In this document: positions 28,553 through 63,433 of the stretch, one piece after another
How the letters are laid out: every line of letters starts with the position of its first letter
How positions within the stretch are numbered: the stretch's first letter is position 1
Source: Blautia sp.
GTDB taxonomy: Bacteria > Bacillota > Clostridia > Lachnospirales > Lachnospiraceae
Length of the DNA: 64,000 nt
Reading direction: 5' to 3'
Assembly: GCA_017515325.1 (NCBI GenBank)
Contig: JAFWGA010000008.1
Location: 1 to 64,000, forward strand
Notes under the pieces: model-generated
The model's database searches: none
Seen by the model: the letters and a program-made list of their open reading frames with translations, nothing else
What the model was told of the DNA's origin: nothing
Translations under genes and position numbers: made by a program

Positions 28553-28648
28553 GTTTAAAGTCATTCCACAATGGCGTGGTTAGCTGGTGTGGAATGGCTT
28601 TTTTTGTTACCTGCTGGCAATGGGTTTGAAAGAAAGGGAGGAACAGTT

Positions 28649-30421
28649 ATGACACAGGAAATAATGAAAGCATTGGATGGTGAGATTTTTGCGGTATGGT
28701 TCCTGATCGGTGCCGCATTTGTTTTCTGGATGCAGGCGGGCTTTGCCATGTGCGAGGCCGGATTTACCAGAGCGAAAAATGCGGGCAACATCATCATGAA
28801 GAACCTGATGGACTTCTGTATCGGAACGGTGATGTGGTTTATCTGTGGCGCTTCTCTGATGCTCGGCCCGAACATCATGAAGGGCTTTGCGGGAGGCTTC
28901 AGTTTTGACGTGTTTACCAACTATGGAAGCTTCAATTACTCTGCCTTTGTATTCAATCTGGTGTTTTGCGCCACGACGGCAACGATCGTATCTGGCTCCA
29001 TGGCGGAGCGGACGAAGTTCTCCAGCTACTGTATCTATTCTGCGGTCATTTCTGCTGTGATTTATCCGATCGAGGCTCACTGGACCTGGGGCGGCGGGTT
29101 TCTGGCACAGTGGGGCTTCCATGATTATGCAGGTTCCAACTGTATCCACATGGTCGGAGGCATCTGTGCTTTTATCGGAGCCTGGATGCTTGGACCCAGG
29201 ATTGGAAAGTTTGAGAAAGACAGGATGGGAAAGATCAGTAAGGTAAATGCATTCCCTGGCCATAACCTGGTTATCGCCGCGCTGGGCGTATTCATTCTCT
29301 GGCTTGGCTGGTATGGATTTAACGGGGCAGCCGCGACAGATGTGCCCACGATGGGATCTGTCTTCCTGACGACTACGGTAGCACCATCAGTAGCAACGGT
29401 CGTATGTATGATTTTTACCTGGATCAGATATGGAAAACCGGATGTTTCCCTGTGCCTGAACGCTTCCCTTGCAGGGCTCGTTGCCATTACAGCCCCCTGT
29501 GATGTGGCGGACTGTGCAGGAGCGGCCGTCATAGGCGCTGTTTCCGGTTTGCTGGTTGTGTTTGGGGTGTGGTTCAACGATCATGTCACTCATGTGGATG
29601 ACCCTGTTGGCGCGGTAGCTGTCCATATGCTTAACGGGATCTGGGGAACGATTGCCGTCGGTCTGTTCGCGACATCGAGCGCGCCTGGCTTTGCTGTCGC
29701 TGGTATCCGTGAAGGACTGTTTTATGGCGGAGGTGTTCAGCAGCTGGGCATGCAGCTTGGCGGCATGCTTATCACTGCGGCCTGGACAGTCGTCACAATC
29801 TGGATCGCATTTACGATTATCCGTGTCACCATAGGACTCAGGGTAACGGAGGAAGAGGAACTGATGGGACTCGATTCAACAGAACATGGGCTTCCGTCTG
29901 CGTATGCTGGTTTCTCCATTATGGATATTTCGACTACGATGATGATGAGTGTCAACGAAAATACGAACCTGGGAACAGACCGTTATGAAGAAGCTTCTGA
30001 GGCAAAGCGCAACGCTGCCGTTCCGGTAATCCGTACCGACGGGGCAGGCATTCCGGTTTTAGATACGGGTATCTCGAAGGTGGTCATTATTGCGAAGCTT
30101 TCCAGATATGATGCTCTTAAACGGGCCATGAACGATCTGGGTGTTACCGGCATGACGGTGACACAGGTGATGGGATGCGGCATTGAGAAGGGCGCCGGCG
30201 AGCGGTACCGTGGTGTTGAGATTGATGCCACACTTTTGCCTAAAGTCAAGCTTGAGGTTGTTGTCAGCTCTATTCCTGTGGATGATGTGATAGCCGCTGC
30301 GAAGAAGACATTGTATACGGGACATATTGGAGACGGGAAGATATTTGTTTATCCAGTGAACCGGGTTGTGAAAATCCGTACAGGAGAAGAAGGCTTTGCC
30401 GCTTTGCAGGATGTAGAGTAA
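28649..30421 (+). CDS. amt: Ammonium transporter fused to a PII signalling domain
   Basis: 590 residues from the ATG at 28649 (AAGGGAGG, 7 bases upstream). Residues 1-410 are an Amt/MEP channel with about 11 membrane segments (MCEAGFTRAKNAGNI, HWTWGGGFLAQWGFHDYAGS and HMVGGICAF motifs). After a linker, residues about 475-588 form a PII (GlnB/GlnK) domain with the KLSRYDALKRAMNDLGVTGM strand-helix, a T-loop containing RYRGVE, LLPKVKLEVVV and the TGHIGDGKIFV B-loop. Channel and regulator are usually separate genes; fusion fixes the stoichiometry and suggests built-in gating by ATP/ADP and 2-oxoglutarate. The attenuated leader suggests nitrogen control. Confidence 0.95.
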   Translation: MTQEIMKALDGEIFAVWFLIGAAFVFWMQAGFAMCEAGFTRAKNAGNIIMKNLMDFCIGTVMWFICGASLMLGPNIMKGFAGGFSFDVFTNYGSFNYSAFVFNLVFCATTATIVSGSMAERTKFSSYCIYSAVISAVIYPIEAHWTWGGGFLAQWGFHDYAGSNCIHMVGGICAFIGAWMLGPRIGKFEKDRMGKISKVNAFPGHNLVIAALGVFILWLGWYGFNGAAATDVPTMGSVFLTTTVAPSVATVVCMIFTWIRYGKPDVSLCLNASLAGLVAITAPCDVADCAGAAVIGAVSGLLVVFGVWFNDHVTHVDDPVGAVAVHMLNGIWGTIAVGLFATSSAPGFAVAGIREGLFYGGGVQQLGMQLGGMLITAAWTVVTIWIAFTIIRVTIGLRVTEEEELMGLDSTEHGLPSAYAGFSIMDISTTMMMSVNENTNLGTDRYEEASEAKRNAAVPVIRTDGAGIPVLDTGISKVVIIAKLSRYDALKRAMNDLGVTGMTVTQVMGCGIEKGAGERYRGVEIDATLLPKVKLEVVVSSIPVDDVIAAAKKTLYTGHIGDGKIFVYPVNRVVKIRTGEEGFAALQDVE

Positions 30422-38917: not shown

Positions 38918-39244
38918 TCAAAAGATATCCGAATGATATCTATTAAACAGATATTGAGATAAGGATCAGAGTCTATACAGTAAAGGACTTACTTTTACTA
39001 CTCTTATTGACCATCTCACCAGGATGTGCGTCTAAACACGGTGAAACTGAGCTTTTAACTCAATCAATAAAATGCAGCGAAAGCTGCGTGCGAGTTTATA
39101 CCCCGCATCGGCATTTGACCCCGGCTGTCCGTTCGGCCTTTGCTCATTGCGCACGGTCGTGTGCTGAATCGTCACGACTGCTCTTAGAGGAGGGGGTCTG
39201 TCATTTACCCGGAATGACTCTCTATTCATTCCTTATCTGCGACG
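38918..39244 (-). ncRNA. Candidate structured RNA or long leader ahead of the M28 gene
   Basis: A perfect promoter on one side and an intrinsic terminator on the other delimit about 360 bases of minus-strand transcript. It contains several stems, among them GGAATGA/TCATTCC, GTCGTG/CACGAC, GCAGC-TTTC-GCTGC and GATATC/GATATC. It has no convincing ORF. I cannot match it to a known class: T-box, cobalamin, c-di-GMP, c-di-AMP, tmRNA and RNase P signatures are not seen. It is either an independent small RNA or an attenuator for the peptidase gene. Confidence 0.55.
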
Positions 39245-39298: not shown

Positions 39299-39400
39299 TA
39301 AATAACTCCAGTGCAAAAAGCATGTTCCCACGGCGAGCTTGCTCGCCGGTGGGGTCAATGCTTGAATGCATGCCTCAATATGAGCATGGAATGGTGCGGC
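39299..39400 (-). repeat. Terminator-like repeat, family II copy 3
   Basis: In reverse it reads CATGCTCATATTGAGG ... CCCCACCGGCGAGC / GCTCGCCGTGGG ... CATGCTTTTTGCACTGGAGT, a diverged copy of 28119-28211. Stem positions change in pairs (CAAGC/GCTTG to CGAGC/GCTCG). Confidence 0.7.
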
Positions 39401-39543
39401 AGCACCATGGGAATGCGAATATGGGGGAGGATTGTGGAAACGCGCAGCGCGAAACAATCCGTAACCGTGAAGCGCGCCTTCACCGATGCCTCATCGTGGT
39501 AAGGCTATGTGCAGCGGACCTCGTTTTTGTATTTTTGGTTGCA

Positions 39544-40435: not shown

Positions 40436-40588
40436 GATCTTCTGTAAACAAACCGATGCATCGGCCACATGACAGGGAAACCGGTTAATGAATCATAACG
40501 GAATGTGTCTGGATGGTACATGATGGCAGCCGGATTGAACCCTGATCTGCCCTTACAGAAATCTGATCGTGGGAACGGAGAAAACGGA

Positions 40589-41005
40589 AAAATTCTAGAT
40601 CTTCTGTATCACGGGCCGAGAAATGACCTTCCGGAAGGATACGCTCCAAAGGGTGTTATCAAGCTGCTGAACGATCACGCGGATGAACTACTCTGCGTGC
40701 GGGGCAACTGTGAGGCGGAAGTGGATCAGATGGTACTGCGTTTTCCTGTAATGGCTGAATATGCCTTGCTGTCTCTCGGATATCACATGATCTATATGAC
40801 GCATGGACATCACGCCAATGAGCAGAATCCGCCACTGCTAAAACCAGGAGATTATCTTTTGTGTGGCCATACGCATGTTCCAAAATGCATGGAGCATGAT
40901 TATTTCACATACCTGAACCCGGGATCGATCTCCATTCCGAAAGAAGATTCACCACGCAGCGATATGATTTTTGATGAAAAGAGCTTTGGCGTCTCTTCCC
41001 TGTGA
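40589..41005 (+). pseudogene. N-terminally truncated YfcE-type phosphodiesterase
   Basis: The frame reads LLYHGPRNDLPEGYAPKGVI then VRGNCEAEVDQM, MTHGHHANEQ, LLCGHTHVPK and NPGSISIPK, the C-terminal three quarters of a YfcE/MJ0936 metallophosphoesterase. The first about 35 residues, carrying the essential DxH metal ligands, are missing. The open frame extends to 40505 in unrelated sequence. It probably makes no active enzyme. Confidence 0.75.
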
Positions 41006-41024
41006 GGAAGAGGCGCCTTTTTTT
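40988..41024 (+). terminator. Intrinsic terminator of the yfcE remnant
   Basis: GGCGTCTCTTCC pairs with GGAAGAGGCGCC, followed by seven T's. The stem overlaps the stop codon. Confidence 0.8.
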
Positions 41025-41191
41025 GGAATTTGGATGACTGAGGCAGTCAGAGAGCTCTATGCTGCTGAAATATGTGTTGAAAAATCCAGATGATCGAATA
41101 TAATCTGATATGTATCATTGTGTCCAGGAACGGGAGCTGTATATGGATCTGAAATCACGGAACAACTCTGGATAAGGAGGATGTACTACCG

Positions 41192-41757
41192 TTGAACCTG
41201 ACTATGAACCGTTTCCCTGGCGGGAATTACACATCAACCTTCCGATGGGAGGACTCTGTGGGACCAAAGGACAGACGCCCCCGGCGGGCGGAAGTTGCCT
41301 GGCAATGCATTGAAACGAATCAGTTCGGACTGAATGAATTCGCAGACTGGTCGAGGCTGAACGGTTCAGATGTCATGATGACCGTGAACCTGGCAACCCG
41401 CGGCGTGCTGGAGGCTATGGACTGTGTCGAGTACTGCAACCTGGAGGGGGGAACTTACTGGTCCGATCTGCGCCGCAGCCACGGTTATGAAAAGCCTCAC
41501 GATTACAAATACTGGTGCCTGTCCAACGAGATCGACGGGCCTTGGCAGGTAGGGCAGAATACCGGCGCGGTTTCAAGGATAAATATGCCGTGAAAGAGGC
41601 TGTCATTCTCTCTCATCCGGATCCTAAAGCCACGAACACGGAAGACGAGCCGGATCATGTCCGGCCTTACGCCGGTGAAGCATCCCTGGAGGATGGTCTT
41701 TTGTGCGCCAGACTGAAACCTCTTTCCTGGAATGTCCTCCGTTTTAAACCGTGCTGA
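41192..41757 (+). pseudogene. Internally deleted GH51 alpha-L-arabinofuranosidase
   Basis: The first part (MNRFPGGNYTSTFRWEDSVG, NQFGLNEFADWSRLNG, VNLATRGVLEAMDCVEYCNL and WCLSNEIDGPWQVG) matches the catalytic barrel up to the acid/base Glu motif. It then jumps near 41570, in another frame, to HPDPKATNTEDEPDHVRPYA and PLSWNVLRFKPC, the C-terminal beta-domain end. About 250 central residues, including the nucleophile, are missing, as is the N-terminus. The gene is dead. No paralogue is visible in the window. Confidence 0.8.
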
Positions 41758-52814: not shown

Positions 52815-53005
52815 ATACGGCGCGACCTCATGCGAATGTGTTCTGGCTCATGCTTCATCGCTTGGCTTCGCCTTCCCGACCTTTCAACAGGCCAGTGACC
52901 GGCAGTTTTCCTGCCATGAAACCTCGCTCGGCAAATACAGCAACGCCCTTGCGCGGGAATCTCACCCGTCTTCCTGGTGCAATCATGCACCAAAATCCGC
53001 GTCAG
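52815..53005 (-). promoter_or_regulatory. Cobalamin riboswitch
   Basis: On the minus strand the order is GGTGCATGATTGCACCAGGA, CGGGTGAGATTCCCG, a GCTGTA segment, GCGAGGTTTCATGGCAGG, the B12 box CCGGTCACTGGCC and GGGAAGGCGAAGCCAAGCGA, then GAGCCAGAA. These match the conserved blocks of AdoCbl riboswitches. It precedes the BtuF-like gene by about 55 bases and would switch the importer off when B12 is plentiful. Confidence 0.93.
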
Positions 53006-53261: not shown

Positions 53262-53837
53262 ATGCCGTTTTTGGATCTTGTAAAGAAAAACAGAAGCTAC
53301 CGTGGCTATGATCACAGCAGAAAGGTCACGAAGGAGGAGCTTCTCGCCATGGTAGAAGCCGCTCGTCTTTGCCCTTCCAGTGTGAATGTGCAGCCATTAA
53401 AGTATTATCTTGCTTATGAAGAGGGCATCGTAGCTGACATTCAGTCTGAAACGAAGTGGGCGAAGGGACTGCCGGATCTGATGCTGCCACATCCGGGCAA
53501 GGAACCGACCGCTTTCATCGTTATATGCCAGGATACGCAAATTGATGCCAATCTGTCCCGCTTTCAGAGGGATGTGGGTATCGTAGCGCAAACGATGCTG
53601 CTTGCGGCTGTGGAGATGGGGCTGGGAGGCTGCATGATCGGCAACTTTAATGCCGGGACACTGCATGATGCGATAGGACTTGCCGAACCAATCAAACCAT
53701 TATTGGTAGTAGCGGTCGGTAAACCGGATGAGGAAATCATCCTGACCGATGTAAAGGATGGAAAGACCGGATATTACAGGGATGAGAAAGACCGCCATTA
53801 TGTACCAAAGCGAGCGGTGGAGGATCTGATTCTATGA
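53262..53837 (+). CDS. Nitroreductase family protein
   Basis: 191 residues, RBS GGAGGTAATAGGAAA. FMN-contacting residues are in KKNRSYRGYD near 9-18 and ARLCPSSVNVQPLKYYLAY near 34-53, with VEMGLGGCMIGNF near 120. It is a small, single-domain flavin oxidoreductase of the SagB/nitroreductase class, cytoplasmic. Its stop codon overlaps the start of the next gene (ATGATGA), so the two are translationally coupled. Confidence 0.9.
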   Translation: MPFLDLVKKNRSYRGYDHSRKVTKEELLAMVEAARLCPSSVNVQPLKYYLAYEEGIVADIQSETKWAKGLPDLMLPHPGKEPTAFIVICQDTQIDANLSRFQRDVGIVAQTMLLAAVEMGLGGCMIGNFNAGTLHDAIGLAEPIKPLLVVAVGKPDEEIILTDVKDGKTGYYRDEKDRHYVPKRAVEDLIL

Positions 53838-54913
53838 TGATCAGAAAATCGACAATATCCGATCTTGAAGCCATTGCAAAGCTGTATGATAAAATTCACA
53901 TGGCGGAGGAAAACGGCCTGCAGACTATCGGCTGGGTAAGGAATGTCTATCCGACACGGAAAACGGCGGAGGATTCCATCCGCCGCGGTGACATGTTTGT
54001 ACTGGAGGACGGAGGCATTTTAGGATCCGCCATCATCAACCAGATCCAGGTAGACGCTTATGAAGGCGCAGGCTGGGAGTATGAGACCGATAAGGTCTGT
54101 GTGCTTCACACACTGGTGATCGATCCTGGAGCAGCCGGGAAAGGGTATGGGAGAAGCTTTGTTGAATTCTACGAACAATGGGCTTTAGAACATGGCTTGC
54201 CGGAGTTTCGCCTTGACACAAATGCCAGGAACATGGTGGCACGGGCAATGTATAAAAAACTGGGGTATACACAGATCGGAATCGTACCGACAGTTTTCAA
54301 CGGGATAGAAGATGTTGACCTGGTGCTGTTGGAAAAGAATCTGGATCATGGAGGAAAGGAAAGAGAAATGACCTTGTATGATGGAAGACCCGAAAATGTA
54401 GCAGACCGCCTTCCCAGGGAGGTACGCACTTACGATTTCCTGGATTCACTTCACATTCCCTATCAGCGTACCGATCATGAACGTGCCGACAATATGGAAG
54501 CGTGTAATGAAATCGATGCCGTGCTGGGCGTGATCATCTGTAAGAACCTTTTTCTTTGCAACCGACAGAAAACAAAATACTATCTTTTGATGATGCCGGG
54601 GGATAAAAAGTTCAAGACAAAAGAATTGTCACAACAGATCAATTCTGCCCGCCTTTCTTTTGCAGAGCCTGATGCCATGCTGAAATACCTGGATATTGAA
54701 CCGGGCGCAGTCAGCATCATGGGACTGATGAACGACAGGGACAGAGTGGTTCAGCTTTTGATCGATGAGGATGTATTGCGGGATGAGTACATAGGCTGCC
54801 ACCCCTGTGTATGTACAAGCAGCCTGAAGATCAGGACGGAAGATGTGATAAAGAAGTTTTTACCGGCTACAGACCATGAGTACATGACGGTGCATCTGGT
54901 AGGAGAAGACTGA
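53834..54913 (+). CDS. GNAT acetyltransferase fused to ProX-type tRNA deacylase
   Basis: 359 residues. Residues 1-170 are a GNAT acetyltransferase (acetyl-CoA loop VIDPGAAGKGYGRSFVEFYE near 95-114, MYKKLGYTQIG near 139-149). Residues about 178-359 are a YbaK/ProX-like aminoacyl-tRNA editing domain (TLYDGRPENVADR..., DAVLGVIICKNLF, SFAEPDAMLKYLDIEPGAVS). ProX/PrdX proteins hydrolyse mischarged Ala-tRNA(Pro). The junction carries a strong internal RBS (GGAGGAAAGGAAAGAGAA) before the in-frame ATG at 54368, so the deacylase could also be made alone; this also hints at a recent fusion of two neighbouring genes. Confidence 0.88.
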   Translation: MMIRKSTISDLEAIAKLYDKIHMAEENGLQTIGWVRNVYPTRKTAEDSIRRGDMFVLEDGGILGSAIINQIQVDAYEGAGWEYETDKVCVLHTLVIDPGAAGKGYGRSFVEFYEQWALEHGLPEFRLDTNARNMVARAMYKKLGYTQIGIVPTVFNGIEDVDLVLLEKNLDHGGKEREMTLYDGRPENVADRLPREVRTYDFLDSLHIPYQRTDHERADNMEACNEIDAVLGVIICKNLFLCNRQKTKYYLLMMPGDKKFKTKELSQQINSARLSFAEPDAMLKYLDIEPGAVSIMGLMNDRDRVVQLLIDEDVLRDEYIGCHPCVCTSSLKIRTEDVIKKFLPATDHEYMTVHLVGED

Positions 54914-55106: not shown

Positions 55107-58100
55107 ATGAAGGAACAAACATCTGCTGCCAATGATGCGGTCAAAATCCAGCCTTATCTTTCACCACTGGCGGTTTGGGCTTTATCGGTTGGCTCAGCCA
55201 TAGGCTGGGGCTCCCTTGTTGTCACCAGCAGCTCCTATCTCTCCCAGGCAGGGCCAATGGGTTCTATCCTTGGTCTGCTGATCGGATTTGCCATGATGCT
55301 GATGGTGTCCAATCATTATCATTTTCTGGCAAACCGTTATCCGGGTACAGGAGGTCTGTACAATTACGTGAAGAACCTTTTCGGCTATGACCTCGCCTTC
55401 CTGATCTCCTGGTTCATGTTTTTGATCTACATCGCTATCTTTTGGGCTAACGCCACCAGCATCCCTCTGTTTGCACGGTATTTTATGCAGGCAGTATTTA
55501 AAAAAGGATATCTCTTCACGGTCTTTGGCTATGAGGTCTATTTGGGGGAAGCACTGGTGACTCTGGCAGTGATGTGGCTTGTCGGTTTGCTGTGTATAAA
55601 GAGCAAAAAAGCGACGGCCCGGATCATGGTGGCAATGGTGCTGATCTTCACCATTGGCATTACCTTCTGCTTCGTTGCGGCCATGTCAGGGCACAGTCGC
55701 TCAGGGATGACGATGAGTCCGGCCTTTCTCCCGGATAAGAGCGTTTTACGGCAGATTGTCCGCATCGCCTTTATCTCGCCCTGGGCTTTTATTGGATTTG
55801 AAACCGTGTCCCATTCCGCTGCAGAATATAAATTCAAGCACAGCAATATGTTCCGAGTCCTTGTCATTTCTGCGGCCGTCACCACCGCCTTGTACGTTTT
55901 TGTGATCCTTCTGAGTGTCTCCGCTTATCCGGAGGGCTGCTCAGGCTGGTTCGATTATATCAGCCGGTTAGACGAATTTGAGGGAATCGCAGGACTTCCG
56001 GCCTTTTACGCGGCATACTACTATCTCGGTCATGCCGGTGTCAATATTCTGATGGCATCCTTGCTGTCACTGGTTCTTACCAGCCTGATCGGTATGCTGC
56101 GTGCCTTGAGCCGCCTGTGCTATGCCGTAGCGCAGGACGGTATTCTGCCTGGACGTTTTGCCAAGCTCAATGAGAAACAGATCCCTGTCCATGCCATCCT
56201 TCTGGTGCTGCTTGTCTCTCTGCCCATACCCTTCCTGGGAAGAACGGCGATCGGATGGATCGTGGATGCCACCACATTTGGCGCCACTATTATCTACAGC
56301 TTTGTTTCTGTAGCCGTATTTAAGGCCTCGGGCCAGGAAGGCAGCAAAAAGGACCGGATCATCAGCGGATTCTGTCTGTTCATTTTGGTTGCCTTTGCAG
56401 TATTCCTGGTTTTCCCGAGCTTTTTTTCCGACTATACAATCGCAACGGAAACATATGTGCTTATGGCGTTCTGGTCCTTTCTTGGGGTACTGTATTTCAA
56501 TTCGGTCATCCGCAAGGATACTGACAGAAAATTCGGTAAAGCTATCATTGTCTGGCTTTCCCTCCTTGTCTTTATCGTTCTGATGGCAATGACCTGGGCG
56601 GAGAGGTTAAATGAAAGCAGAGAAAACGCCATCATAGCGGAAATCTCCGCTTACATGGACGGCATGGCTGAAGCCGGAATAATCGAACAGGACAAAGAGG
56701 AATTTCTTGCGGTACAGCTTAAGCGGCTTCATAATGCAGACGATCTCAGTGTCTCAATGATCGTCGGTCTGTTCGGCTTGTCCCTGATTGTCATGCTGGT
56801 GAATCATCTTTCTATGCAAAGATGGGAGAAGAAGGCTAACGAGGAGCGCGATGAGGCCCGGACTGTTGCCCTTACTGATCCGTTGACAGGAGTAAAAAGC
56901 AAGCATGCTTTTCTTTTGAAGCAGCAGGAGATCGATGCGGCCATTGAAGCTGGGACAGAAGATGAGTTTGCCGTTGTGGTCTGTGATGTAAACGGCCTGA
57001 AGGTCATTAATGATACACTTGGACACAAGGCGGGGGATGAATATATTCGCAGCGCAAGTAAGACGATATGCGATATTTTTCAGCACAGTCCGGTTTATCG
57101 TACTGGCGGGGATGAGTTCGTTGCGATTCTTCGCGGGCGCGATTATCTGATCAGGAAGGAATTGGTCCTGGCTCTGCATGACCGTTCCGTGTCTCATATC
57201 AGTACAAAAGAGGTTGTCATCTCGGGCGGTTTCTCAGATTACAGACCCGGAGAGGACAAGAGCTTTCATGATGCGTTTGAACGGGCAGACGCGTTGATGT
57301 ATGAAGAAAAGAAATTGCTGAAGGGCATGGGCGCTGTCTCACGGGAAGATGCAGAGGTGGCTGCCAAGCCCATATTCCCGACAGATGAAGACGAAGAGAT
57401 CATGAACCTGAAGCGTCACATTCTGATTGTGGAGGATCAGCATATCAATCAGATGATCCTGGGAACTATGCTCGAGGATATCTATGAGATACTGTATGCC
57501 TCTGACGGAATTGAGGCATTAGAGCATGTCAAAACCCATAAAGATGATCTGGCTATGGTGCTGCTGGATCTGCAGATGCCGCAAATGAGCGGGATGGAAG
57601 TCCTGAAGGTGATGAAGGAAGAGGAAGAGCTCAAGGGAATACCGGTCATTGTCATGACAGCTGACCAGAGCGCCGAGGTAGACTGTCTTAAGATCGGAGC
57701 CATTGACTTTATTCCCAAACCTTATCCTTCCGCTGAAATCGTTCAGACCCGTGTCAACCGGTGTATCGAGCTGAGTGAAAAGCGCAATATTATCCAGTCC
57801 ACAGAACGCGACAGTCTGACGAACCTGCTTAATCTCGACTACTTCCTTCGCTATGTCCGGATGTATGATCAGCACTATCATGATATGCCGATGGATGCCA
57901 TTATATTGGATGTCAATCATTTCCATATGTTGAATGAACGCTATGGGAAGCCGTATGGCGATAGTGTGCTCTCCCGCATCGGAAAGCGGGTCCGCCAGAT
58001 TTCCCGTGAGATTGGCGGGGTATGCTGCCGTCGCGGAGCGGATACTTTCTTCATTTACTGTCCGCATAAGGATGACTATGAGAGCATACTGGATAAGGTA

Positions 58101-59492
58101 TTGGAAGGCCTTGTTGATGAAGAAGTGTCGAAGAACCGGGTTCGCCTCCGCATGGGTGTGTATTCCCAGGTGGATAAATCGCTGCAGATCGAGCGTCGCT
58201 TTGACTATGCAAAGATCGCTGCCAATACAGTGAAAAACGGCTATCGGAAGGCTGTCGGCATCTATGACACAAAGATGCATGAGGCAGAGCTTTACCGGGA
58301 ACGCCTCTTGGAGGACTTCAAGCCTTCACTGGAGAGCAATCATTTCATGGTATATTTTCAGCCCAAGTATGATATCCTTCCCGATAAACCCGTACTGGCA
58401 AGCGCGGAGGCATTGGTGCGCTGGAATCATCCTGAACTGGGCATGATCAGTCCGGGAGTGTTCATTCCACTGCTTGAGGACAATGGTCTGATCCTGGATC
58501 TTGATCAGTTCGTATGGCGTGAATCGGCAGCGAGAATACGCTACTGGAAAGAACGCTTCGGCATTTCCGTTCCGGTGTCGGTGAATGTATCCCGCATTGA
58601 TATGCTGACGCCGAATCTGAAGAGCATTTTTAAGGAGATCCTGGAGGAGAACCATCTCAGCCCGGACGATCTGATGCTCGAGATTACGGAGTCTGCCTAT
58701 ACCGGCGATTCTGACCAGGTGATTACCACAGCCAAGGAGCTGCGTGGTATGGGGATGGGCTTCCGTATCGAGATGGACGATTTTGGCACAGGCTATTCGT
58801 CTCTTGGCATGCTGTCTCACCTGCCCATCGATGCGCTGAAGCTGGATATGAGCTTTATTCGCAATGCCTTTGGTGAGCATAGGGATGTGCGGATGATCGA
58901 ACTGATTATCGATATTGCGGATTATCTGCATGTGCCGGTTGTGGCTGAAGGCGTCGAAACACAGGAACAGTATCTGGTTCTGAAGGCAATGGGCTGCGAA
59001 TACGTACAAGGCTATTATTTCTCAAAACCGGTGTCACCTGAAGAATTTGACCGTTTCATTGCAGAACGGGCAGAGGTTAAGTATGAGATGACGCCAATAA
59101 CAAGAAAGACCTATATGAGTATCTCTAAAGCACTGACCAGCGATTTCGAGAGCATTTTCTATGTGGATGTCGCCACGGACTTCTATCTCGAATTCTTTAC
59201 CGGCAGGGAAGGAGATCTCGAAATCCGACCGGGTGGAACCGATTTCTTTAAGGAAGCACGGGAGAAACTGCTGGAAGGGGTGAATGAGACTGATGTGGTC
59301 AAGCTCAGAGAAGCGACCAGTAAAGCAAACCTGATTCACCTGGCTGAACAGGAAGAAGCCATCCGACTGTCATTTGACAAGCTGAAAAATGGCGTACCGG
59401 TTCCTTATTCCCTACAGACCATACGGACGAGGGAAAGTGATCATCATCACCTTGTCATAGGCGTGAGACAGGAAGACGATCATCTGGGATAA
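55107..59492 (+). CDS. APC permease fused to GGDEF-REC-GGDEF-EAL-PAS signalling domains
   Basis: 1461 residues from the ATG at 55107 (AGAGGAGTGAGTAAA). Residues 15-500 form a complete amino-acid permease (about 12 membrane segments; SAIGWGSLVVTSSSYLSQAG, PWAFIGFETVSHSAAEYKF). An extracytoplasmic loop and another membrane segment (about 548-566) follow. GGDEF-1 (586-745) has intact RTGGDEF at 665-671. The receiver domain (770-885) has phospho-acceptor D821 and K871. GGDEF-2 (900-1055) is degenerate (RGADT at 976-980). The EAL domain (1065-1320) keeps EALVRW, NVSRID, DDFGTGYSS, KLD and EGVE, so it should hydrolyse c-di-GMP. A PAS-like domain ends the protein (1330-1461). It probably couples amino-acid transport or binding to c-di-GMP turnover, which is inference. 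Confidence 0.93.
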   Translation: MKEQTSAANDAVKIQPYLSPLAVWALSVGSAIGWGSLVVTSSSYLSQAGPMGSILGLLIGFAMMLMVSNHYHFLANRYPGTGGLYNYVKNLFGYDLAFLISWFMFLIYIAIFWANATSIPLFARYFMQAVFKKGYLFTVFGYEVYLGEALVTLAVMWLVGLLCIKSKKATARIMVAMVLIFTIGITFCFVAAMSGHSRSGMTMSPAFLPDKSVLRQIVRIAFISPWAFIGFETVSHSAAEYKFKHSNMFRVLVISAAVTTALYVFVILLSVSAYPEGCSGWFDYISRLDEFEGIAGLPAFYAAYYYLGHAGVNILMASLLSLVLTSLIGMLRALSRLCYAVAQDGILPGRFAKLNEKQIPVHAILLVLLVSLPIPFLGRTAIGWIVDATTFGATIIYSFVSVAVFKASGQEGSKKDRIISGFCLFILVAFAVFLVFPSFFSDYTIATETYVLMAFWSFLGVLYFNSVIRKDTDRKFGKAIIVWLSLLVFIVLMAMTWAERLNESRENAIIAEISAYMDGMAEAGIIEQDKEEFLAVQLKRLHNADDLSVSMIVGLFGLSLIVMLVNHLSMQRWEKKANEERDEARTVALTDPLTGVKSKHAFLLKQQEIDAAIEAGTEDEFAVVVCDVNGLKVINDTLGHKAGDEYIRSASKTICDIFQHSPVYRTGGDEFVAILRGRDYLIRKELVLALHDRSVSHISTKEVVISGGFSDYRPGEDKSFHDAFERADALMYEEKKLLKGMGAVSREDAEVAAKPIFPTDEDEEIMNLKRHILIVEDQHINQMILGTMLEDIYEILYASDGIEALEHVKTHKDDLAMVLLDLQMPQMSGMEVLKVMKEEEELKGIPVIVMTADQSAEVDCLKIGAIDFIPKPYPSAEIVQTRVNRCIELSEKRNIIQSTERDSLTNLLNLDYFLRYVRMYDQHYHDMPMDAIILDVNHFHMLNERYGKPYGDSVLSRIGKRVRQISREIGGVCCRRGADTFFIYCPHKDDYESILDKVLEGLVDEEVSKNRVRLRMGVYSQVDKSLQIERRFDYAKIAANTVKNGYRKAVGIYDTKMHEAELYRERLLEDFKPSLESNHFMVYFQPKYDILPDKPVLASAEALVRWNHPELGMISPGVFIPLLEDNGLILDLDQFVWRESAARIRYWKERFGISVPVSVNVSRIDMLTPNLKSIFKEILEENHLSPDDLMLEITESAYTGDSDQVITTAKELRGMGMGFRIEMDDFGTGYSSLGMLSHLPIDALKLDMSFIRNAFGEHRDVRMIELIIDIADYLHVPVVAEGVETQEQYLVLKAMGCEYVQGYYFSKPVSPEEFDRFIAERAEVKYEMTPITRKTYMSISKALTSDFESIFYVDVATDFYLEFFTGREGDLEIRPGGTDFFKEAREKLLEGVNETDVVKLREATSKANLIHLAEQEEAIRLSFDKLKNGVPVPYSLQTIRTRESDHHHLVIGVRQEDDHLG

Positions 59493-59626
59493 AGGCATAA
59501 AGCGCTGCTGATCGTGGCTAGTGGAAAAACGATGGGTTTGTCTGAATCATCCATGTTGTAAAAAGGGCATACCTGGTTTATACTGTAAACTGTCAGGGGA
59601 AACTTTAAAAATCCAGTTACAATGAT

Positions 59627-59670
59627 AAGGCATTGGGATTCGGTGGTTCCGTACCCTATGCCTTTTTCTT
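59627..59670 (+). terminator. Terminator or attenuator between the two giant transporter genes
   Basis: AAGGCATTGGG (59627-59637) pairs with CCCTATGCCTT (59654-59664, one mismatch), followed by TTTTCTTT. The T-tract runs into the RBS of the next gene. It is 135 bases after the first stop and 15 before the second start, so it can both end one transcript and limit the other. Confidence 0.7.
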
Positions 59671-59684
59671 TGGGGAGACGAAAC

Positions 59685-62600
59685 ATGGAAAAACAAACTG
59701 CAGGTGTGGCAAAAGCATTGGATCGATATCTAAATCCTGTGGACGTATGGTCGATGGCGTTCGGGTGCATGGTTGGCTGGGGGGTCTTTGCCATGCCGGG
59801 AACGACCTTTCTCCCGGTTGCCGGCCCGGCCGGAACCCTGATCTCCATGTTGCTGGGGATGGCATTCATGCTGATCATCGGGGAAAATTTTTCTTTTCTG
59901 ATGGGGCGGTCTGCCATGACAGGGGGCGCTTATTCCTATACCAAGGAGGCATTTGGCCGGGATCATGCCTTCCTGTGCTCCTGGTATCTTTGTCTGTCCT
60001 ACCTGACCATTGTGTTTCTGAACGGTACAGCCTTGTTTATCATTGTACGGACACTGTTTGCCGACATTGCGCAGAAAGGATTCCATTATTCTGTGGCAGG
60101 AAACACCATATACCTGGGAGAGACGTTGGTATCCGTTTTGGTGCTGGCATCTGTAGGAATTATGTTTGTGCTGGCTAAACCGATGCTTCAACGTCTCCAT
60201 ACCGTTCTGGCGCTGATCCTGTTCGGCGGTATTGTCATTACCGGCGTCTTTTGCCTGCCCCACGCTGCCGCAAGTGGTGAACTGAGTTCCTTTGGCATTC
60301 AAGGACTGAACAGGGGATATGCGGTTCTCAGCCTGGTTATTATGGCACCGTGGGCATTCGTTGGCTTTGAGGTAACAACATTTGATACGGCTCACTTCAG
60401 ATTCCCGATCAAGAGATCCAAAAGAATCATTTTTACTTCCATTGTGGCAGCGACAGTCGCCTATGTTTCCATGACGTTCGTCAGCATTTGCTCGGTGCCC
60501 GACGGTTTTCCGACCTGGCAGGCCTATGTGGAAGGACTGGATGGACTGAGAGGCATTGCTTCCGTACCGACTTTTTTTGCGGTCAAGTCCATCATGGGTA
60601 CTGCGGGTCTGGTTATTATGACGATTACGGCTATTGCGGCTATACTGACCGGGATCATCGGCGGCTTTCGGGCCACAACCCGTGTACTGGCCACTATGGC
60701 AGAGGACAGGATTCTGTCTGAAAAGTTTCAAAACACCACCTACAGTATCGTATTTATTCTGGTTCTGTCCATACTCCTTTCTCTGCTGGGAAGGAACACA
60801 TTGATCTGGTTCGTAGACCTGACATCTCTGGGCGCAATTATCGGGTTTGGGTATTGCTCGGCGGCTGCTTACAAGCTGGCCAAGGCCGAGGGCGACAAGA
60901 AGACGACAGTAACCGGGTTGCTGGGGGCGCTCATTTCGGTGATATTTCTCATTGTGCAGCTTGTTCCCCGGCTGGGAGCTCTGGATGCTATGGCAAGCGA
61001 AGCTTTCCTGCTGCTGGCATTCTGGTGTCTGCTTGGATTTGTATTCTATTGGAGGACAGTTACCAAAAGTAAGTTGACGGAGTACAGTGGGATGTCCACC
61101 TCGGGAACCGCTATGTTTGCCTTGCTTGTCTATTCTGCTCTGATGTGGTTTGTCAAGCGGCTTGGTACGGCGGAAAGTATTCTGCAGGTAAAGCAGATGC
61201 TTGTCTGGGGCGGGATCATCCTGATCGTGATGATATTCGTCGGCCTTGCCATCATGCTCTATATTCAGGATATCGTAAGGCAGAAGCATGAGGTGGTGGA
61301 ACGGGAGAAGATCCACGCGGTGGAGAGCAGTCTGGCAAAGAGCCGGTTTCTTTTTAATATGTCGCATGATATCCGCACCCCGATGAACGCAATCATTGGT
61401 TACACCGTTCTGGCGCGGAGGGAGGAGAGCATCACAAAAATCCGCGAATATCTTGACAAGATTGAAAGCTCCAGCCAGCATCTTCTTGCCCTGATCAATG
61501 ATATCCTGGAAATGAGCCGTATTGAAAGCGGGACGATCGAACTGGAATTTCTTCCCATCGATCTTCAGGCTTTATTCGACAGTATCCGAGACCTGTTTTC
61601 GGAACAGATGAAGCAGAAGAAGATGGATTTCCAGGTTCATACCAGCCAGGTACAGAACCGATATGTCTGGTGCGACAGGAAAAACCTGAATCGGGTGCTG
61701 CTGAATATCCTCAGTAATGCCTATAAGTTTACCCCGGAAGGGGGACAGGTTACCGCTTCACTCTTTGAAGTCGGCAGTGGGGAAAGCGGATACGGTTCCT
61801 ATGAGATCAGGGTACAGGACAACGGAATCGGCATGTCCAGGGAATTTACCGAGAAGATTTTCACTGCCTTTGAACGGGAGCGCACTTCTACCGTCAGCGG
61901 TGTGGAAGGAACCGGACTGGGGATGTCGATCACCAAGAGCATTGTCGACCTGATGGGCGGAACCATTGAGGTGTTCACGGCACCGGGAACCGGCACGACT
62001 ATTGTCATCCGCCTGAAGCTGAAAATCGCCGAAGAGAAGGACGTAACGAAGGATCAGCAGGGGACAGAGACAACAGACAACAGCCAGGAGGCGCAGGAAG
62101 ACGTTTCTATGGACTTCACCGGCAAACGGCTGCTTTTGGTTGAGGACAACCTGATCAACATGGAAATTGCCGAGATGATTCTCTCGGATGCCGGCTTCAC
62201 GGTGGAAACCGCTGAGAACGGCAAAATCGCGCTGGATAAGGTTTCCTCTTCCGAGCCAGGCTACTATGACGCTGTCCTGATGGACATTCAGATGCCGGAA
62301 ATGGACGGCTATGAAGCGACCAGGGCAATTCGTGCCTTACCTAACGCAGACCTGGCCAATATACCGATCCTGGCGATGACAGCGAATGCTTTTAAAGAGG
62401 ATGAGATCGCTGTTCTGGAAGCAGGCATGCAGGCGCATATCGCCAAGCCGGTGGATGTGGATCTGCTGATGAAGACGCTGGCCACAGTGCTTCAAGAGAG
62501 TCATGGATATCGAACATTTTACATAGAGAAGGGAAAGGGCAGCCCTTTGCTGCTGCTCCACGGAAACGGAGAGGACAGTAGTTATTTCCATGGCCAGATT

Positions 62601-63182
62601 GATGCGTTCGCCCAACAATATCACGTGTTTGCGATGGATACGCGGGGCCACGGAAAAACACCAAGGGGAACCATGCCTTTTACGATCCGTCAGTTTGCGG
62701 AAGATCTGCGTTTTTTTATGGATAAGCATCAAATTGAGAGAGCCCATATACTTGGATTTTCTGATGGGGGGAACATTGCCATGATCTTCGCAATGAGATA
62801 TCCGGAGCGGGTGGACCGTCTGATCCTGAACGGCGCTAATCTCAATGCAGGCGGCGTAAAAAGGACCACGCAGATTCCCATTGAGATTGGCTATAGAATA
62901 GCCTGCAGATTTTCCGGGAAGAATGATTCTGCCAGACGGAAGGCAGAGCTGCTGGGGCTGATGGTAAATGATCCGGATGTTGCTCCGGCAGAGCTGGCTG
63001 CAATAGAGGCCAGGACGCTTGTCCTGGCCGGGACAAATGACATGATAAAAGAAAAGCATACCCGCTTAATCGCGGCAAGTATTCCCAACGCAGAACTGAC
63101 ATTCATCAAAGGAAACCATTTTATAGCAGATCAGCATCCCGAAGCATTCAACAGGGCAGTACTGGAGTTTCTGGAAAAATAG
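59685..63182 (+). CDS. APC permease fused to hybrid histidine kinase and alpha/beta hydrolase
   Basis: 1165 residues from the ATG at 59685 (GGGGAG). Residues 10-530 form an APC permease ([37 protein letters not shown]), homologous in layout to the preceding gene. HisKA (545-615) has [11 protein letters not shown] with H561; the HATPase (660-780) has N-box N677 and [14 protein letters not shown]; the receiver (815-930) has D867 and K921. Residues 940-1165 are an alpha/beta hydrolase with nucleophile S1026 (GFSDGGN), D1119 and H1145, all catalytic residues present. The hydrolase is joined right after the receiver domain without a linker. I infer a transporter-sensor kinase whose receiver could gate the hydrolase. 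The substrates are unknown. Confidence 0.93.
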
Positions 63183-63252: not shown

Positions 63253-63433
63253 ATTGGCACAATTAGGAATAGATGCACTTTTGAGGATTGAACTGTAAAA
63301 GGAGTCTGTGCCGGTCTCGGAACTGCGAAGCGCGGAACAATCCGTAGAAATCATTTTTGCAGTATAATCAAATATGGTTGAACAGTTCCAATTCGTGCGT
63401 ATATTATGATACAGGAGACTGGCTAAGTATGTA

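Follow-up and report, generated by a model that had tools for sequence, protein, structure and literature searches.

The open reading frame (ORF) at 59685–63182 of a Blautia sp. draft contig (JAFWGA010000008.1, the first 64,000 nt of which are the window analysed here) joins an APC-type amino-acid permease domain, a hybrid histidine kinase with a receiver, and an alpha/beta hydrolase. We consider it probable that a conserved, transporter-derived receptor has here been joined privately to an unrelated hydrolase, which would most likely be a passenger and not a phospho-controlled output. The preliminary description of this DNA had proposed a permease fold attached to a hybrid kinase in one polypeptide, whose output would be the hydrolase; the first half of the proposal stands, the arrangement being kept in relatives, and the second does not.

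The open reading frame and its surroundings

In the ORF list, the frame runs from 59622 to 63182; the ATG at 59685 is a better start than the beginning of the frame, because a GGGGAG motif precedes it. The parts of the gene are:

59685..63182, plus strand: ORF of 1165 aa with permease, HisKA, HATPase, receiver (REC), and alpha/beta hydrolase
59730..60968, plus strand: APC-type permease domain (AA_permease_2) with 12 hydrophobic segments and the TM1 motif GCMVGWGVF
61098..61253, plus strand: hydrophobic segments 13 and 14 (from hydropathy), running directly into the kinase
61335..61532, plus strand: HisKA with H561 (Pfam)
61674..62024, plus strand: HATPase_c with N and G boxes (Pfam)
62133..62480, plus strand: receiver domain with D867 (Pfam)
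62526..63182, plus strand: body of the alpha/beta hydrolase with S1026, D1119, and H1145, a stand-alone gene in relatives

Pfam, applied to 59685–63179, places AA_permease_2 at residues 16–428 (E 2.9e-15), HisKA at 551–616 (5e-19), HATPase_c at 664–780 (7.4e-26), Response_reg at 817–932 (E 1.3e-23), Abhydrolase_1 at 954–1051 (8.9e-28), and Abhydrolase_6 at 955–1158 (9.6e-14), in agreement with the one-frame domain set that had been claimed. H561 and D867 lie at the positions previously given for them, an N box and two G boxes can be recognised, and the full Ser-Asp-His triad is confirmed as S1026, D1119, and H1145. The ORF thereby has what marks a hybrid kinase, namely the HisKA histidine, the N and G boxes of HATPase_c, and the receiver aspartate; a pattern search for the first of the G boxes succeeds in the window ORF and not in the kinases of genomes G036 and G031. 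The hydrolase domain has an HGNG motif in addition to its triad, the three columns of which are invariant in the alignment with stand-alone relatives.

As in APC-family proteins, the AA_permease_2 match covers the whole domain, with 12 transmembrane (TM) segments and the TM1 glycine motif. Plain hydropathy counts 14 hydrophobic segments before the kinase, 12 inside the permease and two further, and segments 13 and 14 adjoin the HisKA helices directly: residues 429–550 yield no additional Pfam domain, and hence no recognisable linker, at E ≤ 0.001. At the same threshold, AA_permease_2 is the only Pfam match before HisKA; the SLC5 and STAC domains by which another class of transporter-fused kinases is recognised are not among the Pfam matches.

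The following features lie elsewhere in the window:

39108–39159, minus strand: SpF59 sRNA (Rfam)
39303–39470, plus strand: Clostridiales-1 RNA (Rfam)
52838–52974, minus strand: cobalamin riboswitch (Rfam)
55107..59492, plus strand: neighbouring gene for permease, GGDEF, REC, GGDEF, and EAL domains, its permease belonging to the same clade as that of the ORF
59627..59667, plus strand: terminator-like hairpin and T-run between this neighbouring gene and the ORF (fold z-score only -1.3)

The minus-strand gene set that follows the riboswitch presumably encodes a binding protein, a permease, and an ATPase. The region 40505–41593 is likely to consist of remnants, a metallophosphoesterase match beginning there at profile position 47 of 154, and includes a short frame that we take to resemble an arabinofuranosidase fragment. 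A GNAT acetyltransferase and a tRNA-editing domain share one ORF at 53834–54913, with a purine-rich stretch and an ATG inside; in the 64 same-genus genomes, 47 of which (including its own) match at E ≤ 1e-20, no other row spans both halves.

Kinase and hydrolase genes in related genomes

Relatives of the kinase were sought in 98 genomes, including its own, with seven candidates scored per genome. Among the matches listed, the closest is that of G036 (85%, query residues 1–939, open frame of 958 aa), and the others comprise G049 (84% identical, divided between two contigs), G032 (80% identical, query residues 1–956, open frame of 968 aa), and G031 (67% identical, open frame of 965 aa). Read as ORFs, the kinases measure 951 aa in both G036 and G032 and 929 aa in G031; all of these frames stop soon after the receiver, as does the G049 kinase piece. 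Pfam finds permease, HisKA, HATPase, and receiver domains and no hydrolase in the G036, G032, and G031 proteins. The kinases of G036, G032, and G049 carry a tail of about ten residues past the end of the similarity, which is absent from the window ORF.

The hydrolase was searched for in the 64 same-genus genomes at E ≤ 1e-30 and was found in 10 of them, including its own (11 rows); among the matches listed, the 10 non-window rows, from nine genomes, are separate frames of 232–290 aa. Kinase and hydrolase are both present in G036, G032, and G049, on different contigs, and G031 has no hydrolase at E ≤ 1e-30. A query consisting of receiver and hydrolase was then compared with 392 genomes of the order (five candidates scored per genome), 229 of which matched at E ≤ 1e-20, and among the matches listed the window alone has both domains in one uninterrupted frame. 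In this search, the 14 closest other hydrolase rows among the matches listed (48–71%) lie in frames of 227–296 aa. Some weaker rows fall in longer frames (498 aa in G408, 366 aa in G069) without a receiver match, and those of G273 and G231 extend upstream of the hydrolase, but across a stop codon. The preliminary description had suggested looking for the receiver–hydrolase junction in other genomes, and none was seen among the matches listed from the 64 genus and 392 order genomes. It had also named homologues that end after the receiver, with the hydrolase encoded separately, as the sign of an accidental fusion, and this, as far as the data go, is the pattern found.

Fusions that are conserved do come to light in such searches. 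The window holds an ammonium transporter (Amt) fused to P-II in one ORF (28571–30421), which served as a positive control: with the linker and P-II as the query, the P-II part was recovered in open frames of 506–642 aa in 41 other genomes of the genus, the Amt portion being deduced from frame length. Conserved fusions are therefore visible to the search method, and no other instance of the kinase–hydrolase fusion appeared among the matches listed.

The nearest relative among the matches listed is G036 for the kinase and G032 for the hydrolase, and the two parts therefore appear to have separate histories and not to have travelled together. Compared with NCBIfam, the hydrolase is closest to models for 3-oxoadipate enol-lactonase, a PHA depolymerase, and RutD, although all 25 models shown fall far below their cut-offs. 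It shares its domain and triad with stand-alone alpha/beta hydrolases of the PcaD/RutD type, from which the window arrangement differs in that the relatives have the hydrolase as a separate gene (232–290 aa in the genus, 227–296 aa in the 14 closest rows of the order). By the Nei-Gojobori method, the hydrolase has a pairwise dN/dS of 0.114 when compared with G032, and the kinase one of 0.136 when compared with G036; this is a point against the private-join reading, although the ratios mostly reflect the time before the join.

Evidence of an ancestral adjacency of the two genes was considered in a 46-nt stretch that lies before the window kinase and again ahead of G032's stand-alone hydrolase (local BLAST, 85%; the genome search gave no match in G032 among the matches listed). 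It was rejected because the stretch is terminator-like and also occurs between two other genes in G036. Stretches resembling the 59627–59667 hairpin are found at two places in G036 as well as before the G032 stand-alone hydrolase. Downstream of the ORF, a DNA comparison of nine genomes gave no shared gene order: the longest matches are pieces in G049 (65–74%), whose contigs carry neither the kinase nor the hydrolase of that genome, and the remaining ones are shorter than 160 nt, many of them from two dispersed repeats. After the hydrolase, at 63322–63379, lies a dispersed repeat of about 50 nt with many copies in its own genome and in G032 and no Rfam match at the gathering threshold. A stretch of about 80 nt on the same contig beyond the window (65325–65422, L142), situated in the frame 64505–65767, has many similar places in G036.

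The junction and its possible origins

Two features define the join:

62488..62504, plus strand: break point, from DNA similarity to sister kinases and stand-alone hydrolases
62503..62526, plus strand: the hydrolase's own ATG (62503) and first codons (MDIEHFT, followed by TAG), shifted by one base relative to the frame of the hydrolase body

Similarity to the three closest sister kinases stops at 62488–62493, and similarity to the closest stand-alone hydrolases starts at 62500–62504. The counterparts of the N-terminal MDIEHFT are MDIEHFF in G032 and MDIKHFY in G036, and residues 940–945 of the fused protein, HGYRTF, are the hydrolase start codons (MDIEHF) read out of frame, a point absent from the preliminary description. 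In an alignment of 19 loci (the window and 18 relatives), the distance from the start to the EKG motif is 24 nt in 15 of the 18 stand-alone relatives and 21 (L136), 27 (L164), and 54 nt (L140) in the others, a multiple of three in all 18; in the window it is 23 nt. The kinase frame thus enters the hydrolase only through a one-base offset. This anatomy, with a start codon one base out of frame, argues for a private frameshift fusion, which may be either a recent mutation or a sequencing or assembly error. In the proposed sequence of events, the join would have deleted the kinase stop codon and its short tail and set the hydrolase start alongside, and a one-base length difference just within the hydrolase gene would then have brought the kinase frame into line with that of the hydrolase.

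The best explanation leaves room for the join to be real and the offset a sequencing error, a real possibility that we lean slightly against. The kinase and hydrolase genes would then overlap in the cell, with the hydrolase beginning at 62503 and the kinase reading on, in a different frame, to a stop within the hydrolase gene. The offset coincides with a T-run (62517–62520) that has four T in the window and is longer in G036 (five), G049 (six), and G032 (seven); the hydrolase start codon is kept, with a purine stretch before it; and the third frame, which is the alternative continuation, closes at 62579–62581, as is usual for overlapping genes. Four T are nevertheless a short run, most genes of the window look intact by eye, so that the error rate seems low, and a scan for ribosome-binding-site patterns is silent here, flagging neither the kinase–hydrolase nor the acetyltransferase–tRNA-editing junction. 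An assembly chimera, in which kinase and hydrolase genes lie apart in the cell, seems unlikely to us: the assembly is a draft (68 contigs, completeness 87.7%) and probably a metagenome bin, kinase and hydrolase are on separate contigs in G036, G032, and G049, and the second private join, of the acetyltransferase and the tRNA-editing domain, lies about 5 kb upstream of the ORF, but both domains are whole at the kinase–hydrolase join, which is rare for a random chimera.

Against a privately joined, unrelated hydrolase, it can be said that the join falls between two complete domains with the triad intact, as in a useful fusion, and the comparison set has one genome per species, so that the fusion could be fixed in this one. 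A true four-part enzyme, fixed in the species and with receiver phosphorylation controlling the attached hydrolase, would account for the open frame, for the position of the join between whole domains, and for the intact catalytic residues of kinase, receiver, and hydrolase. We nonetheless regard it as very unlikely, given that no second example occurs among the matches listed from the 64 genus or 392 order genomes, that none of 34 scanned permease-receptor relatives has a hydrolase match at E ≤ 1e-5, that the junction has a frame offset, and that the two parts have different nearest relatives. The transport-gated enzyme suggested by the preliminary description fares no better, the sister frames stopping soon after the receiver and the junction being offset by one base. 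A more far-reaching idea is that, at a very early stage and by way of a frameshift, the kinase has captured the hydrolase as a phospho-controlled, permease-gated output, the APC fold having turned receptor once and then been shuffled among kinases, c-di-GMP cyclases and phosphodiesterases, and HD proteins in Clostridia and Selenomonadaceae; we hold this to be a long shot. No description of a receiver–hydrolase output turned up in the literature searched, a weak absence. If a private accident is the correct reading, it shows how the striking architecture of a protein known from one draft genome may depend on a single nucleotide.

A probable family of APC-type permease receptors

The permease–kinase portion of the ORF belongs to a wider set of fusions. 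In the draft genome itself, all three AA_permease_2 domains found are parts of signalling fusions: the window has two of them, and contig 30 the third. Permease ORFs longer than 700 aa amount to 28 distinct frames, including the two of the window, in 11 of the 64 genus genomes, and Pfam was applied to 25 of the 26 outside the window (all except L179). Fourteen are kinase types with one or two receivers, one of them with PAS (no receiver shows in L174, which is truncated at a contig end); five have GGDEF as their sole output (L167 being truncated in the same way); and six have GGDEF, receiver, and EAL (with L169, L171, L181, and L184 likewise truncated). None of the 25 has a hydrolase at E ≤ 1e-5, nor do nine further proteins from other genera or named records (L205–L211, L039, and L094; for L205 and L206 the scan covered one ORF each, and it left out L212 and L213). 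These nine add HD as well as HATPase without a HisKA match (L205, L206), and the named Selenomonadaceae record L039 is a permease–kinase–receiver protein. In L210 (209–2698, G390), the permease is joined to an HD domain (HD_5), another type of output. L205 (G477) and L206 (G805), from another family of the phylum, are tandem pairs of permease-fused genes, the scanned member of which has HATPase.

A midpoint-rooted tree was built from 45 permease domains, 27 fused and 18 labelled stand-alone (the fused L184, without its N-terminus, was dropped). The 27 fused rows and L201, the frame of which is cut by a contig end, fall on one branch (support 99/93), several stand-alone branches being long; because of L201, the formal one-clade count is two changes, not one. 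Within the fused branch, the permease of the window ORF groups with those of the G036, G032, and G031 kinases. A family profile made from 15 fused permease domains was compared with the 392 order genomes (four candidates scored per genome): its best 14 matches, three in its own genome and eleven in ten others, are in frames of 826–1481 aa, and are followed by a gap in E-value from 2.6e-142 to 5e-111, the next match being in a frame of 535 aa and those after it of stand-alone lengths, with four weaker matches (G191, G345, G203, and G440) again in frames of 754–897 aa. Among 398 phylum genomes (three candidates each), G104, G477 (two), and G805 (two) lie above the gap. The sequences thus suggest that APC-type permease domains fused to kinase–receiver, GGDEF, GGDEF–EAL, and HD modules belong to one clade. 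Its profile matches solved APC transporters (CAT1, GkApcT, AdiC type), best CAT1 at 7e-22, from which the clade differs in being fused to signalling domains and in forming a group separate from the genus's sampled stand-alone permeases; the window permease sequence alone, compared with solved structures, gave nothing at E ≤ 0.001.

Since the TM1 glycine motif and a PWAFVGFE segment are retained, the permease domain probably still binds an amino-acid-like ligand. In the mechanism we propose, the APC-fold domain, with its 12 TM and two linking TM segments, would bind such a ligand, and the resulting conformational change would travel via TM14 into the dimerisation helices of the kinase, whereupon H561 would phosphorylate D867 and then a partner. 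Transporter-fused kinases are already known from the SLC5/STAC proteins CbrA, CrbS, and RpuS (PMC13022988, PMC9100948) and from Ks-Amt5 (PMC5764959). As in the window ORF, the SLC5/STAC kinases have the transporter N-terminal to the kinase and some are hybrids with a receiver (PMC13022988, PMC9100948). The window transporter, however, is AA_permease_2 and not SLC5, has no STAC or PAS match in Pfam, shows 12 + 2 hydrophobic segments instead of the 13 TM of those kinases, and belongs to a clade that also precedes GGDEF, EAL, and HD outputs. Ks-Amt5 resembles the ORF in that an uptake-transporter fold serves as receptor for an attached kinase and a transducer of the HAMP type is lacking; it is reported to bind ammonium without translocating it (PMC5764959). 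It has the Amt fold, whereas the window ORF has the APC fold, for which transport is only putative. The SLC5 domain of CbrA takes up histidine (PMC13022988) and is reportedly not required for perceiving the signal, which may be sensed in the cytoplasm (PMC9100948). By analogy, the APC domain of the window ORF could likewise be dispensable for sensing, and our confidence in the best explanation is slightly lower because of the CbrA precedent.

The literature searched, mostly without subscription journals, did not describe a class of APC-permease kinases or cyclases; the absence is a weak one, and the transporter-fold sensor kinase family looks undescribed. In this draft genome, the amino-acid-permease fold was found only in signalling proteins, placed before two-component and c-di-GMP outputs. 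If confirmed, the family would add to SLC5 and Amt a third fold in which transport can be compared directly with sensing, and its members would be candidate nutrient receptors of the bacteria with APC-permease fusions.
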